Source: Candidatus Thorarchaeota archaeon
Lineage (GTDB): Archaea > Asgardarchaeota > Thorarchaeia > Thorarchaeales > Thorarchaeaceae
DNA length: 7,277 bases
Direction: 5' to 3'
NCBI GenBank assembly: GCA_016840245.1
Contig: JAEOST010000217.1
Location: 1 to 7,277, forward strand
Within the stretch, counting starts at the first letter, position 1. Each line of letters begins with the position of its first letter. A program made the translations under genes and the position numbers. Shown here in pieces: positions 1 through 7,277 of the stretch. Under the pieces are notes generated by a model. It saw only the letters and a list, made by a program, of their open reading frames with translations. It did not search any database and had not been told where the DNA came from.

Positions 1-795
1 CACATTTGTTGGAAGACATACAAGTGCTACATCTTCAGGAATACGGCCCACTACATCTTGATTTCCTCTATCAATTGAAAGGACAATCTCAGCACCTGCA
101 TCGACTCCTGCCTCTATTTCCTTGGGATTGAGAGTATCAATACTCACAGGTAGACCTAGTTTTCGAACTTCAGCTACCACTTCAGCCATTCTTTCAGGGT
201 CTGGCTTCTCGATATTTGTACCCAAATCTAGGATGTCAGCATGTCTTGCAAGTCTACGGGCTTTAGATATTGATACATCAATGGACCGTGTTGTGACATC
301 AACAATCTCTGCCATAACTCTGGGTGGGAACTCCATTCCTATGGTAAGGCCTGAACGAAGCTTGAAGTTTCGAATCTTATAGCTGGCTTCATGCTCTATT
401 CTCTGAATCTGTTCTTTCAATTGTTCAGTCAGTTTGTCTTGGATGATTTTATCGGCTGGTTCAATTGGTGATAGTTTCTCGACTACCTCCTCAATTTCAC
501 GTAGCAGCAAGGCTAAGCCTGATACATTCTTCGTTCCTTTTAGAACACGTGTTCCAAGTTTCTCACTTGCCTCGGAAAAATCACCCTGAGTCATACCTGA
601 TACCAAGATGAGATCTGGATTGTACTTAGATACTAAATCAGGACCATGTCTAAGTACTATCTTCATTGTTGTGAATGCTGCAACTGAGATCGGAAGGGTC
701 TCTACACAGACATTGGGAAACTCATCTGCAACTCTGGACACATCATCATAGGCCATTCGACCAGTTAGAAGCAATATCTTGTCACTCTCAGACAA
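1..795 (-). CDS. Dihydropteroate synthase-like protein, N-terminal 265 codons (C-terminus off window)
   Basis: The reverse strand is open from a TTG at 795 down to base 1. The product starts MSESDKILLLTGRMAYDD, as archaeal dihydropteroate-synthase-like proteins do (the family I know as TIGR00284). Residues about 6-100 form an N-terminal alpha/beta domain (KILLLTG; DLILVSGMTQGDF at 61-73). Residues about 100-140 are a charged helical linker. From about 150 a pterin-binding TIM-barrel half follows, with HADILDLGTNIEKP at 185-198, LPVSIDT at 215-221 and EAGVDAGAEIVLSID at 228-242. These resemble the GADIIDIG, SIDT and GA-I-ND segments of true dihydropteroate synthase. A role in pterin (methanopterin or folate) synthesis is inferred by similarity; members of this branch have not all been shown to have the activity. 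The TTG start is chosen because a GGGAGCGG Shine-Dalgarno site lies 7 bases upstream, no ATG occurs between the in-frame TGA and this point, and the family begins right at this strand. The gene is divergent from the methyltransferase. Confidence 0.85.
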   Translation of the reverse strand, partial: MSESDKILLLTGRMAYDDVSRVADEFPNVCVETLPISVAAFTTMKIVLRHGPDLVSKYNPDLILVSGMTQGDFSEASEKLGTRVLKGTKNVSGLALLLREIEEVVEKLSPIEPADKIIQDKLTEQLKEQIQRIEHEASYKIRNFKLRSGLTIGMEFPPRVMAEIVDVTTRSIDVSISKARRLARHADILDLGTNIEKPDPERMAEVVAEVRKLGLPVSIDTLNPKEIEAGVDAGAEIVLSIDRGNQDVVGRIPEDVALVCLPTNV

Positions 796-1637: not shown

Positions 1638-2012
1638 TTGAGCTTACAATCAAAGAAAGCAAATGAAGAATTCGAGCGTTGGTCCAAGGAGGTAAAGAGA
1701 GGCGCTGCATCTCTTGCGATATTGGCCGTGCTTGAAGATGAGAGTAGCTACGGTTACGAGATTGTCAAGAAACTCGAGGACAAGGGAGCAAGCTTTCTTG
1801 CCTTTGAGCAGGGTACAGTCTATCCACTTCTTCGCAGATTAGAGGAGAAGCGTGGACTCTTACAGGCAACCTGGAATTATGATGACCCTACAAAGCCAAG
1901 AAAGTACTACTCTATCACTTCAGAGGGACAAGAAGTCTTCAAGCTTATGAAAGAAAAATGGACCGAACTCTCCCGGGAAATGGAGAGAATACTAGAGGGT
2001 GATGCGCTATGA
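1638..2012 (+). CDS. PadR-family winged-helix transcriptional regulator
   Basis: This 124-residue protein is of typical length for a small PadR repressor. The winged-helix core runs from about 21 to 95. It contains RGAASLAILAVLEDESSYGYEI (21-42), the PadR helix 1-2 signature with the usual L-A-L and YGYEI. GTVYPLLRRLEEKRGLL (59-75) is the recognition helix and start of the wing. RKYYSITSEG (88-97) is the PadR wing signature. A C-terminal helix (about 99-119) would be used for dimerisation. An additional charged N-terminal segment (1-20) precedes the core. PadR proteins act as dimeric repressors, often responding to small ligands or membrane stress. The start is TTG behind GGTGA. The stop overlaps the start of the membrane-protein gene as ATGA, so the two are co-transcribed and probably translationally coupled. 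The twin GTACAGTACT sites in its promoter suggest autoregulation of the pair. Confidence 0.93.
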   Translation: MSLQSKKANEEFERWSKEVKRGAASLAILAVLEDESSYGYEIVKKLEDKGASFLAFEQGTVYPLLRRLEEKRGLLQATWNYDDPTKPRKYYSITSEGQEVFKLMKEKWTELSREMERILEGDAL

Positions 2013-3121
2013 CAAGTGATCCCGAGAAACTAATTGAACAATATTTGGAGAGAGTGAGAGTCTATCTACCACTGGATAGTGAAGACACTCTAATGGAAAT
2101 CAGAACACATCTACTGGACTCAGCCGAGGAGATTGGGCAGGGTGCAGTGACTGCAGGATCGGTCACAATGGCTATTGAGCGTCTTGGTGACCCCAAACGA
2201 GTTGCCAATGAGTACGCAGGTACTGGCGAGACGAAGGGACCCGTCCCTGCAGAGTACGTACAACCAGTGATGCGGGTTCTCTTGACAATTCTTGCACTCA
2301 GTATTGCAGTCATCGTTGGAGTCAACGTAATTGGAGCTGCATTTGGTGATGCCTTTGTAATTCCAACCTTCCCATTCAACATACCCGCAATGATAGCATT
2401 GAATGTCCTAATCATTGTTGGAATTGTTGTAATCGTTTCACTAGTTGTAGATCGCGATAAGGCAGTGACTGAGAAGACCACACTTGAGGTAGTCTTAGGT
2501 GCAGGAGGCGAGGGTTTCAAACCAAAGGGTCGCTGGGAGGCTGCTGGTGAGGTTATCTTTGGAATGATCGGGGCATATGTGATAATCATTCCCGCCATCC
2601 AGTTCGCATTGAAACCTGGTCTTGTCCCCCTCATGAACATAGCTGCACTTCTATTGATGCTTGGTGCAATCAAGGGTGCACTCTACTTCAGAGCTGGTGA
2701 GAACAATGTGAACCTCCTACTTGAGGTTCTCATAAGTGTAGGTTTGGTCATACTTGGGATACTCTTCACAGGTTTCCTCTATCCAATGGACTACATCTAC
2801 GCCTTCAATGATGGTGCTTGGCACACCTACTCTGTACAACAATTAATTGGATTAGTATCCATTGAAGAATTCGATATAACAATCGTCTTCGCAGTCGGTT
2901 GGAGTATCTTCATCTTCATCCTGATAGTGGTCAACGTCTGGAAAGTGTTGGTTTCAACAGCTAAGATTTCCATGTATCTTAAAGATGGTAAAGGATGGTG
3001 GTGGCAAGGGATGTGGGGTACTCCAAAGTACCGAAAACTCAGACGTCGTTTCTGGCAGAGAGAAGCACCATCACCAACCCCCTCTGATCAGAGGACGTAT
3101 CAAGACGGTTACCAAGAATAA
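2009..3121 (+). CDS. HAAS/DUF1700-like multi-pass membrane protein, partner of PadR
   Basis: This is a 370-residue protein. Residues 4-72 form a soluble helical domain (IEQYLERVRVYLPL at 9-22, MEIRTHLLDSAEE at 29-41, MAIERLGDPKRVANEYAG at 54-71). It has the E-I-x-x-H-L and LGDP-x-x-A-x-E pattern of the HAAS/DUF1700 domain, which is characteristically encoded beside PadR regulators. Six hydrophobic helices follow at roughly 87-112, 124-147, 180-200, 205-227, 235-258 and 289-312. A cytoplasmic-looking tail (320-350) is tryptophan-rich and basic (GKGWWWQGMWG, then KYRKLRRRFW). There is no transporter ATPase or catalytic motif. A role in membrane sensing, or in holding the PadR protein at the membrane or controlling its activity, is inferred from the gene pairing and has not been shown. 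The ATG at 2009 overlaps the PadR stop by four bases (ATGA). A hairpin plus T-tract follows the stop. Confidence 0.8.
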   Translation: MTSDPEKLIEQYLERVRVYLPLDSEDTLMEIRTHLLDSAEEIGQGAVTAGSVTMAIERLGDPKRVANEYAGTGETKGPVPAEYVQPVMRVLLTILALSIAVIVGVNVIGAAFGDAFVIPTFPFNIPAMIALNVLIIVGIVVIVSLVVDRDKAVTEKTTLEVVLGAGGEGFKPKGRWEAAGEVIFGMIGAYVIIIPAIQFALKPGLVPLMNIAALLLMLGAIKGALYFRAGENNVNLLLEVLISVGLVILGILFTGFLYPMDYIYAFNDGAWHTYSVQQLIGLVSIEEFDITIVFAVGWSIFIFILIVVNVWKVLVSTAKISMYLKDGKGWWWQGMWGTPKYRKLRRRFWQREAPSPTPSDQRTYQDGYQE

Positions 3122-3183: not shown

Positions 3184-4707
3184 TCAATTATGGACTGTAA
3201 ATGAAAATTCGCAAGCATTTTCTTCAGTTGCATCATCGCGTAAGCAATCAATTTGTCCGTTATATCGACTCATTAGCAGTTTGATTGTAAATAGGTCAAG
3301 ATCCAACATTATGTTTCCAACAAGTGCTTCACTCTTGAGAAATTGATGTGTGTCTTGAGGCATTGGTTTCCCACGGGTCTTAATGGATACAGTGTAGATA
3401 TCTTCGTTTTGCTTTACAGATATTGACAAAATGGGAACGTCATCAAGCCGATTTTTCATAAGGAGGAAGATTGCACTCTGAAACGCAAGGTCGAGAAGAT
3501 CATCGCCCAGCACTATGAGTGATTCTTGTTGTGTGTACTCAACAGAAAACACATCTTCACCTAGAAGTCTGATTGCTGATTTGATTGCTTTTCTAATAGC
3601 ATCTGAGATGTCGACGGGCCTTAAAGATTGATGAAAACTATCTTTTATTTGAGTGAGCTGTAGAACCTGATGATTGACCAAGGTTGCTTCTCTACTTATG
3701 TCACGAGCAACTACACGAGTCTTTCGGTCATCCTCGCCATGTTGGGCTGCAGATTCCAAGATATCAAGATAGGTCACAACACCTTGTAAGATGTTTCCCA
3801 TCTTGTGAGTCCACATATTCAGGTAGAACTCACTCTCCTGCTTGGAAATCTCCAACTCTGTAGTACGTTGTTCCACCAGACTCTCCAAGGCTTTATGGGG
3901 CTGTAGAATCGAAGTGATAAACTGAATAGCTGCTACCAAGAGAAATCCTGCTATATTAGTCGCCATCCAGATTAACTCGGCAACCTGTAATGGGTCCCAG
4001 AGAACAATGACGAAGATTGTACCTGTTATCCAGAGGCCAAGTGCTAATAGCAGAGATAGGTCAAGGATGTCCCTGGTCTTCCACCACTTGTGCACGAATC
4101 GAATCAGAGCCACTATCTGTGCGATTAGATAGCCCATCGAGATGATCATTCCCAGAGGCGTCAATCCCTCAAATCCACCCTCAGGTGATGTCATGAGGAA
4201 CACGGGGTCATGGCTGAAGAAGAACCATAGACTGATGGCTGGCATTATCACTGCGCCCCATAGAAGGAGCAAGAACACGCTTGGGCGTTTAGGTTTTGCA
4301 TCACCGGTGAACGAACCAAGGAGAATAGTAGGTACGACAACAAGCACCAATGCCATTGCCAGAGTTCGATTCCTTTCTCTACTTGCAAAAACTGACCATT
4401 CAGTGGATGATGGATGAGTCACGAGAAATAGGAATGTCCAAATAACAATATTCGCACCCAACAAAACCAACATGAAACTACGAATCTCTCTATATTGGGC
4501 AAAAGAAACCACCGAATAGGTCGATATCCATCCTGCTGATATTGCTAAGAGAAACGAGAGTATAATCAACCAGAAGGAGAATTCAGATCGACTGAGAATG
4601 TTCCATGCGAATCCAGTTATAGATGTAGAGATGAAAAGATACAATGCTATGATAAACAAACTGACCTCTAACCAGTTTACCCAGCTATAGTCAGAATGCT
4701 CTCCCAT
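3184..4707 (-). CDS. Eight-helix histidine-kinase-like membrane sensor with degenerate ATP-binding domain
   Basis: Numbered from the ATG at 4707 this is 507 residues. Eight hydrophobic helices (about 11-33, 44-64, 76-96, 115-134, 142-165, 183-205, 215-236, 242-268) resemble the N-terminal membrane sensor of archaeal histidine kinases. A charged helical linker follows (about 271-297), then the dimerisation helix LNMWTHKMGNILQGVVTYLD (296-315). This matches the H-D-x-x-N-x-x-Q pattern of archaeal kinases but has Lys instead of Asp/Glu after His301. The last 130 residues align loosely with a GHKL ATPase. However, the N-box region (FQSAIFLLMKN, 409-419) lacks the conserved Asn, the G1 box DxGxG is TRGKP (444-448), and the G2 glycines are replaced (LDLDLF, 468-473). 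It is therefore probably a pseudokinase or a very divergent enzyme. A longer GTG start at 4755 (523 residues) is open. The ATG 4707 start is preferred because the BRE/TATA at 4761-4777 would start transcription near 4739 and GTGAGAGG lies 9 bases before the ATG. No response regulator is adjacent. Confidence 0.82.
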   Translation of the reverse strand: MGEHSDYSWVNWLEVSLFIIALYLFISTSITGFAWNILSRSEFSFWLIILSFLLAISAGWISTYSVVSFAQYREIRSFMLVLLGANIVIWTFLFLVTHPSSTEWSVFASRERNRTLAMALVLVVVPTILLGSFTGDAKPKRPSVFLLLLWGAVIMPAISLWFFFSHDPVFLMTSPEGGFEGLTPLGMIISMGYLIAQIVALIRFVHKWWKTRDILDLSLLLALGLWITGTIFVIVLWDPLQVAELIWMATNIAGFLLVAAIQFITSILQPHKALESLVEQRTTELEISKQESEFYLNMWTHKMGNILQGVVTYLDILESAAQHGEDDRKTRVVARDISREATLVNHQVLQLTQIKDSFHQSLRPVDISDAIRKAIKSAIRLLGEDVFSVEYTQQESLIVLGDDLLDLAFQSAIFLLMKNRLDDVPILSISVKQNEDIYTVSIKTRGKPMPQDTHQFLKSEALVGNIMLDLDLFTIKLLMSRYNGQIDCLRDDATEENACEFSFTVHN

Positions 4708-7083: not shown

Positions 7084-7277
7084 ATGTGTAAATGGTGCTT
7101 CAAACACGGTGATGGAGGAAAGTGGTATGAGAACGCCCGCCTCTATTCCAATGAACTAGCTGACGAATACAACCTAGGTGAATATCTAGAAGAACAGTGG
7201 AAGAACATGGAGACCCTTTTCATCCGGAAAATTATGGGATTCAACTCCATTGGACTTGGGTACAAGATGCAAATGCC
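7084..7277 (+). CDS. Probable 4Fe-4S cluster protein, N-terminal 64 codons (C-terminus off window)
   Basis: The frame is open from ATG 7084 to the window end (64 codons and two bases). The product starts MCKWCFKHGDGGKWYENA. I recall this C-x-x-C-x-x-HG-x-G-x-KWY-x-A opening from a family of soluble anaerobe 4Fe-4S proteins, whose further cysteines would lie beyond this window. Cys2 and Cys5 are the only cysteines so far. The rest (residues 19-45) is helical and acidic. The frame has no stop close upstream, but the TATA at 7028-7034 and GGTG nine bases before make this ATG the likely start. Family and cofactor are inferred from the N-terminus only; function is unknown. Confidence 0.65.
   Translation, partial: MCKWCFKHGDGGKWYENARLYSNELADEYNLGEYLEEQWKNMETLFIRKIMGFNSIGLGYKMQM

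Follow-up and report, generated by a model that had tools for sequence, protein, structure and literature searches.

A Thorarchaeota clade of histidine-kinase descendants that has lost the ATP-binding residues and keeps the phospho-acceptor histidine

Can a histidine kinase lose its ATP site and keep its phospho-acceptor? The stretch of DNA analysed here (the window) comprises 7,277 nucleotides of a Candidatus Thorarchaeota archaeon (GenBank assembly GCA_016840245.1, contig JAEOST010000217.1) and carries a histidine-kinase-like gene on its reverse strand, whose product an initial annotation had read, from the letters alone, as a pseudokinase with its His helix kept and its ATP-binding boxes lost. 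That observation is right, and it is wider than the window: the protein belongs to a clade of archaeal proteins that descend from histidine kinases, are ATP-incompetent and retain the phospho-acceptor His. We know of little experimental work on Asgard signalling. The functionally tested degenerate kinases without an ATP site in the literature cited here are bacterial, whereas the Thorarchaeota clade is archaeal. Because relatives with this architecture survive in intact and in half-degenerate form, the sequence of losses can be followed, and the kept residues tell which chemistry was retained. In one subclade, a mirror-image neighbour gives a concrete two-protein question, that of a His-less kinase phosphorylating an ATP-less one.

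How consistently are the ATP residues lost among relatives? We aligned the window protein with 62 proteins (P0001-P0062) and with frames from the genomes of its class, and grouped the rows by the residue after the His (H+1). The 84 rows with Lys at this position include the window and at least four repeated proteins, and fewer of them reach the boxes of the CA domain (81 for the N-box, 78 for G1 and G2). Both the His and the Asn four residues after it (H+4) are kept in 84/84. The first N-box Asn survives in 21/81 rows and the second (N2) in 4/81, the G1 Asp in 0/78, and the two G2 glycines in 5/78 and 0/78, the second being replaced by Asp, Asn or Glu in 77/78. The seven rows with Glu at H+1 (one protein twice) keep N2 in 5/7, the G1 Asp in 6/7 and the G2 glycines in 6/7 and 7/7; among 12 paralogues with Asp at H+1 the counts are 11/12 for N2, 12/12 for the G1 Asp and 10/12 for the second G2 Gly. 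An alignment of this kind was among the checks that the initial annotation had proposed, and the residues are consistently lost. The losses are not due to chance, for they recur across the relatives, in which His, Lys(+1), Gly(+3), Asn(+4) and Gln(+7) hardly vary. Profile searches give the same contrast: at E ≤ 0.01, HATPase_c matches 1/54 members of the Lys group (A1) vs 6/6 of the Glu group (A3). None of the 54 A1 members matches a described phosphotransferase Pfam family at that threshold, an absence that is not proof.

For the window protein, box positions were set by alignment to intact Thorarchaeota kinases (Table 1), and residues are numbered on the 523-residue frame from the GTG; subtracting 16 gives the earlier numbering, in which H317 was H301. 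On this alignment, the Lys in place of the acid after the His, the Ser and Leu in place of the N-box Asn residues and the Thr in place of the G1 Asp stand as first described. The G2 glycines are lost as well, but their replacements are both Asp, not Asp and Leu. Displaced but intact boxes, which the initial annotation had named as evidence that would speak against it, were not seen: no DxG or GxG stands between G1 and G2 in the aligned window protein.

Table 1. Features of the ATP-less gene and its product in the window
Feature	Position	Strand	Remarks
ATP-less histidine-kinase-like gene	3184..4707	-	507 amino acids from ATG 4707; open to GTG 4755, 523 amino acids
Membrane sensor region, about eight helices	3901..4686	-	residues 24-285; MASE3-like by relatives only
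DHp region, two long helices	3637..3900	-	residues 286-373; weakest part of the model, block pLDDT 61-73 at 301-370
Phospho-acceptor motif H317-K-M-G-N-I-L-Q324	3784..3807	-	His codon 3805-3807; in WTHKMGNILQG
Degenerate CA (Bergerat-fold) domain	3187..3630	-	residues 376-523
Former N-box	3445..3489	-	S427 and L431 replace the two Asn
Former G1 box	3361..3384	-	T460 replaces Asp; IKTRGKPM
Former G2 box	3286..3306	-	LDLDLFT; D485 and D487 replace Gly; slow-evolving

The fold of a histidine kinase is nonetheless kept. An AlphaFold model of the window protein (mean pLDDT 82.7, pTM 0.62; weak in the first 20 residues and around the His) has some eight membrane helices, from which a continuous helix leads into the DHp hairpin and on to a Bergerat-type alpha/beta domain. 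Its structural neighbours, among the matches listed, are mostly histidine kinases and include the pseudokinase DivL and RetS; neither Spo0B nor ChpT figures among the 50 matches listed, from which we draw no conclusion. Taken alone, the sequence matches no Pfam kinase family and no solved PDB chain at E ≤ 1, and its best NCBIfam match, the sensor kinase CreC (E 3.8e-4), has 19.4 bits, far short of the cut-off of 356. Solved histidine kinases are found by sequence once the window protein is combined into a profile with 14 relatives, of which one has Glu at H+1 (ZraS, E 1.8e-12; the GLGL of ZraS is aligned to the LdLd of the ATP-less family). The protein thus has a DHp region with a phospho-acceptor His and a Bergerat-fold CA domain, both hallmarks of histidine kinases, and lacks the N-box, G1 and G2 residues for ATP and Mg. 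The MASE3 family (PF17159) has no match in the window protein; it matches 5/6 A3 members at E ≤ 0.01 (best 3.3e-7; one member examined in detail falls under the curated cut-off) and 2/15 members of a further alignment, A4.

Where did these proteins come from? They probably descend from a MASE3-like sensor histidine kinase. The Lys and Glu proteins have one common architecture over their whole length (A1 and A3 profiles align over 500 columns with probability 100), and four of the same-architecture relatives with an acid after the His have an essentially intact ATP site. A full-length tree of 49 rows was rooted by choice on four rows with His-Glu (HE); 28 A1 rows were omitted from it, as were 14 rows that were repeated, fragmentary or interrupted. 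It unites the Lys proteins in a single clade (support 98/92) whose sister is the protein of locus L019 (100/99). L019 has HE and both G2 glycines and has lost the G1 Asp and N2; another Glu protein, L040, has lost both N-box Asn residues and one G2 Gly. These partial losses, with the acid still present, suggest that decay of the ATP site began before the acid after the His became Lys. A tree of the DHp and CA domains with canonical kinases as outgroup gives the same order, with weak support for the single clade (66).

Lys-type genes occur in 18/47 genomes of the class, counting fragments except for a 59-residue piece in G030; we infer from two of these genomes (G001 and G002) that the class is Thorarchaeota. 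When the A4 profile was searched against 227 genomes of the phylum, all matches down to E 3.6e-38 fell within the 47. Matches outside are weak and lie mainly in DHp and CA; the best (E 3.5e-25) covers profile positions 277-498, though a few extend into the last membrane helices. Full-length Lys-type proteins were found in Thorarchaeota only, and their named source organisms are Thorarchaeota with a single entry given as Promethearchaeota. Searches of open-licence text returned no paper that we recognised as dealing with this clade.

Is the gene simply decaying? The initial annotation had argued from the intact frame that it is not, and selection bears this out. The frame is open over 507 codons, and the ratio of nonsynonymous to synonymous substitution (dN/dS) is 0.19 in one close pair (DHp 0.07, CA 0.27), of which one member is the interrupted gene of G032, and 0.11 in another (membrane region 0.07, DHp 0.08, CA 0.18), near the 0.14 of an intact control pair, L033/L035 (DHp 0.06, CA 0.20). 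The family is under purifying selection and is maintained with its phospho-acceptor and without its ATP site. A functionless gene, decaying or mis-assembled, is therefore extremely improbable: an in-frame stop in each of two related genes would fit it, but most full-length members of this long-lived clade have open frames, and the conservation pattern also disfavours it. The two stops, a TAG in G032:C264 (L011/L048) and a TGA in G002:C295 (L002/L004), may be assembly errors or local losses, which are indistinguishable. With losses common to the clade, purifying selection and a kept fold, the term pseudokinase is apt.

Which parts of the protein are constrained? Site rates were estimated for 68 Lys proteins, with intact PAS kinases and His-less PAS kinases as controls. 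In the Lys proteins, DHp helix 1 evolves at 0.55, helix 2 at 0.73, the membrane region at 0.81 and CA at 1.41, and H317, K318, G320, N321, L323 and Q324 belong to the slowest class. CA is also faster than DHp helix 1 in the intact (0.90 vs 0.67) and His-less controls (0.99 vs 0.48), giving ratios of 1.3 and 2.1 against 2.5 in the Lys proteins; these controls, together with those for dN/dS, weaken a slow DHp and a fast CA as proof that CA function was lost. The argument is carried instead by the box residues: N2 and G1 evolve at 0.70 and 1.00 in the Lys proteins, compared with 0.17 and 0.20 in intact kinases. Within CA, the G1 stretch (1.59) and the lid (1.52) are fast and the G2 helix is slow (0.44), which suggests that the former G2 region still serves some conserved function. 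At D485-D487 (window 3295-3303), the replacement of the second Gly, in a helix as slow as DHp helix 1, looks specific rather than drifted; a salt bridge of D487 with K318 is conceivable.

What might a protein with a fixed His and no ATP site do? If it carries phosphate it needs a donor. The reading we favour, and to which we would give about an even chance, is that of an ATP-incompetent, membrane-anchored phospho-acceptor or phosphatase subunit fed in trans, in the mode of PhyT, Spo0B or ChpT. As we infer the phosphoryl traffic, its direction and its partners, the membrane domain would sense a signal and control the conformation of a DHp bundle, which may be a homo- or a heterodimer. H317 would not autophosphorylate; it could take a phosphoryl group from the CA domain of a partner kinase, or from a phosphorylated receiver, whether of a regulator or of a hybrid kinase, and could pass it to a receiver domain or, with N321, remove it from one.

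Conformational signalling, heterodimerization with an active kinase and phosphorylation in trans had first been proposed without ranking. Phosphorylation in trans is now favoured over purely conformational signalling, because His and the H+4 Asn are kept in every Lys row and the N2 and G1 sites are much freer than in intact kinases; in one subclade, moreover, the gene is paired with that of a His-less, ATP-complete kinase. A conformational pseudokinase in the mode of RocA or DivL, which would bind an active kinase or a receiver and alter its activity without carrying phosphate, strikes us as unlikely. Lost ATP boxes on a kept fold would suit it, as would the structural matches to DivL and RetS and the conserved G2 helix, which suggests a retained binding surface. 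DivL and RocA are likewise kinase folds that have lost catalysis, and RocA, which also spans the membrane repeatedly, is described with six putative membrane helices and does not need its His to function (PMC7028121). Fixation of both His and the H+4 Asn, however, is unexpected if phosphate chemistry is gone: the RocA His is dispensable, and DivL, described with Tyr at the His site (PMC4211667), lacks the residue that all 84 Thorarchaeota rows keep, so that the clade is not of the DivL type.

The combination that marks degenerate-kinase phosphotransferases, a kept His and a degenerate ATPase domain, is by contrast what the Thorarchaeota clade has. ChpT and Spo0B are soluble, whereas the Thorarchaeota protein has a large membrane region, and neither family appears among the Pfam matches of the 54 A1 members. 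They do share with it a DHp hairpin bearing the His, and ChpT is further described with a Bergerat-like domain unable to use ATP (PMC3433190). In the cited literature, the closest working analogue is PhyP/PhyT, described as membrane-anchored, with an HRxxN motif in DHp and a degenerated ATPase domain (PMC5898713). The likeness extends over the anchor, the kinase architecture, the basic residue after the His, the H+4 Asn (HRxxN vs HKxGN) and the degenerate ATPase domain; the Thorarchaeota protein differs in being archaeal, of no demonstrated sequence kinship and without a receiver gene beside it. Since the trees place the Lys clade with Thorarchaeota kinases that have an acid at H+1, the resemblance is probably convergent.

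Could a second kinase supply the missing half? In G002 and G012 a PAS kinase gene immediately precedes the ATP-less gene on the same strand, with gaps of 63 bp and 1 bp. This partner has the architecture PAS-PAS-DHp-CA with a C-terminal CxFC domain, and its motif MTSDLNIILQ has Ser for the His and Ile for the H+4 Asn, with the H+1 acid and the ATP residues kept. The two loci are still paired although their ATP-less proteins share only 43% identity and their kinases 58%, and they have no other common neighbour in the stretches compared (the G002 flanks are just ~2.5 and 1.3 kb). No other genome of the 47 has a match of ≥58% to the partner kinase; the rest reach ≤53% to its subgroup. Among 115 partner homologues at E ≤ 1e-60, the His is absent from 96 and present in 19. 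The closest 14 (P0076-P0089, among them both linked proteins) carry Ser in place of the His and Ile at H+4, and each has a full ATP site (both N-box Asn, the G1 Asp and both G2 Gly), whereas the remaining 82 His-less homologues keep N2 in just 9. Where members of this ATP-complete subgroup could be placed on a genome, they lie beside an ATP-less His gene in 2/2 cases.

These data point to a reciprocal split kinase, in which the His-bearing, ATP-less protein would be phosphorylated by the His-less, ATP-complete PAS kinase in a heterodimer or trans complex, two half-enzymes making one kinase. At least four receiver genes on the G012 contig fit this, as does the precedent of CheA4/CheA3, a proven split kinase (PMC2817712) in which His and ATP functions are likewise divided over two proteins; that pair, however, has CheA architecture with an HPt-type P1 domain, and the Thorarchaeota pair has DHp on both proteins and is proposed from gene adjacency. 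The adjacency occurs in only 2/26 ATP-less loci, both of one subclade, and the flanks are very unequal (none at a contig end to >10 kb; two loci are fragments). At L045 and L068 a kinase-like frame stands some 2-3 kb off instead, and nothing similar adjoins the window gene. The His-less copies examined from four genomes of the window clade (G001, G022, G029 and G032) lack N2, so that this clade would need another donor, and His-less proteins are common in genomes without an ATP-less gene. Once kinship is counted, there is no support for an association between presence of the gene and an intact N-box: Fisher's test for co-occurrence with an ATP-complete His-less kinase gives p = 0.26 (30 copies) and reaches p = 0.008 only with six Q-type copies omitted, kinship-aware pairs are too few, and we claim no correlation. 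A split kinase is thus supported by linkage in one subclade, is hypothetical for the window protein, and is on the whole rather unlikely. We regard as unlikely, too, the more general proposal that Thorarchaeota divided a DHp kinase into a Lys-bearing membrane half with the His and a PAS half with Ser and the ATP site, with the two genes adjacent in one subclade and apart in others, the window gene being an unlinked His half with another kinase as its ATP half.

The mirror partner resembles His-less archaeal kinases described from Methanosarcina (MA_type 2) and Lokiarchaeum, and A. fulgidus AF_1472 has HisKA without HATPase; AF_1472 is described as a receiver-PAS protein with no ATPase domain at all, and the Thorarchaeota protein keeps a degenerate CA. 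The cited passages describe no linked reciprocal kinase pair (PMC11784639, PMC10343646, PMC5847659).

Are there receivers for a phosphotransfer subunit to serve? Receivers are present in 45/47 genomes of the class and the classical HPt domain (PF01627) was detected in 0/47, which makes a PhyT- or Spo0B-like role plausible. The five window-clade genomes (G001, G022, G028, G029 and G032) have 9-12 receivers each, several in one open frame with an HATPase_c match. A number of observations pull the other way. The 29 genomes that have no ATP-less gene lack HPt just the same, so closing a relay does not require the gene, and a lack of HPt that is true of all 47 genomes is weakened as support for a relay role. 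None of the 52 receivers of the five window-clade genomes is on the contig of the gene (some contigs are short, one 3.7 kb), and the eight window proteins scanned include no receiver or kinase Pfam family. In G014, which has two ATP-less genes, the one receiver match is weak (E 0.045) and none reaches E ≤ 1e-5, and G008, mostly one 3.16-Mb contig, has a single receiver. The RocA His, equivalent in position, is reported as mutable without effect (PMC7028121); the very slow G2 helix is unexplained by mere loss of CA function; and intact kinases also have a CA faster than DHp, a contrast that alone proves little.

The partner kinases belong to a widespread PAS-PAS family (L060:3428-5152, reverse strand; L061:2483-4291, forward strand; L071-L100) in which the phospho-His is replaced by Ser, Gln, Asn, Thr, Lys or Arg, the H+1 acid and most ATP boxes are kept, and the unnamed CxFC domain forms the C terminus. 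Second copies of the family are paralogues with His in 18/18 cases (17 genomes). The strand order of the partner's CxFC domain suggests a thioredoxin-like fold; by sequence, this piece has no match in Pfam or the PDB, and its best 50 Foldseek matches are mostly PAS- and kinase-type entries.

As to the window gene itself, full-length relatives are mostly about 500-515 residues long and most rows of a 14-row alignment share the start at ATG 4707, which makes 3184-4707 the likely gene. Its nearest relative, from Candidatus Thorarchaeota, is 95% identical over 70% of the length. A viral origin was considered and rejected, since three window proteins, the ATP-less one among them, match no PHROG family at E ≤ 0.1. 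A local profile search, run for kinases and not for receivers, found no kinase frame beside the gene. The neighbourhood is conserved in the related loci L001, L048, L049 and L050 and partly in L010, and inspection by eye, without a Pfam scan, recognised no kinase or receiver family in their shared neighbour clusters. Elsewhere in the window, a dihydropteroate-synthase-like protein (TIGR00284 / DUF6513; 1-795, reverse strand) is truncated by the window edge, and a PadR-type regulator is followed by a HAAS-domain protein with a four-base overlap (1638-3121, forward strand). At 7084-7275 (forward strand), an open reading frame truncated by the window end resembles the first part of a 4Fe-4S protein (48% identity over 62 residues) whose gene adjoins those of ATP-less kinases in L044 and L046, both distant loci.
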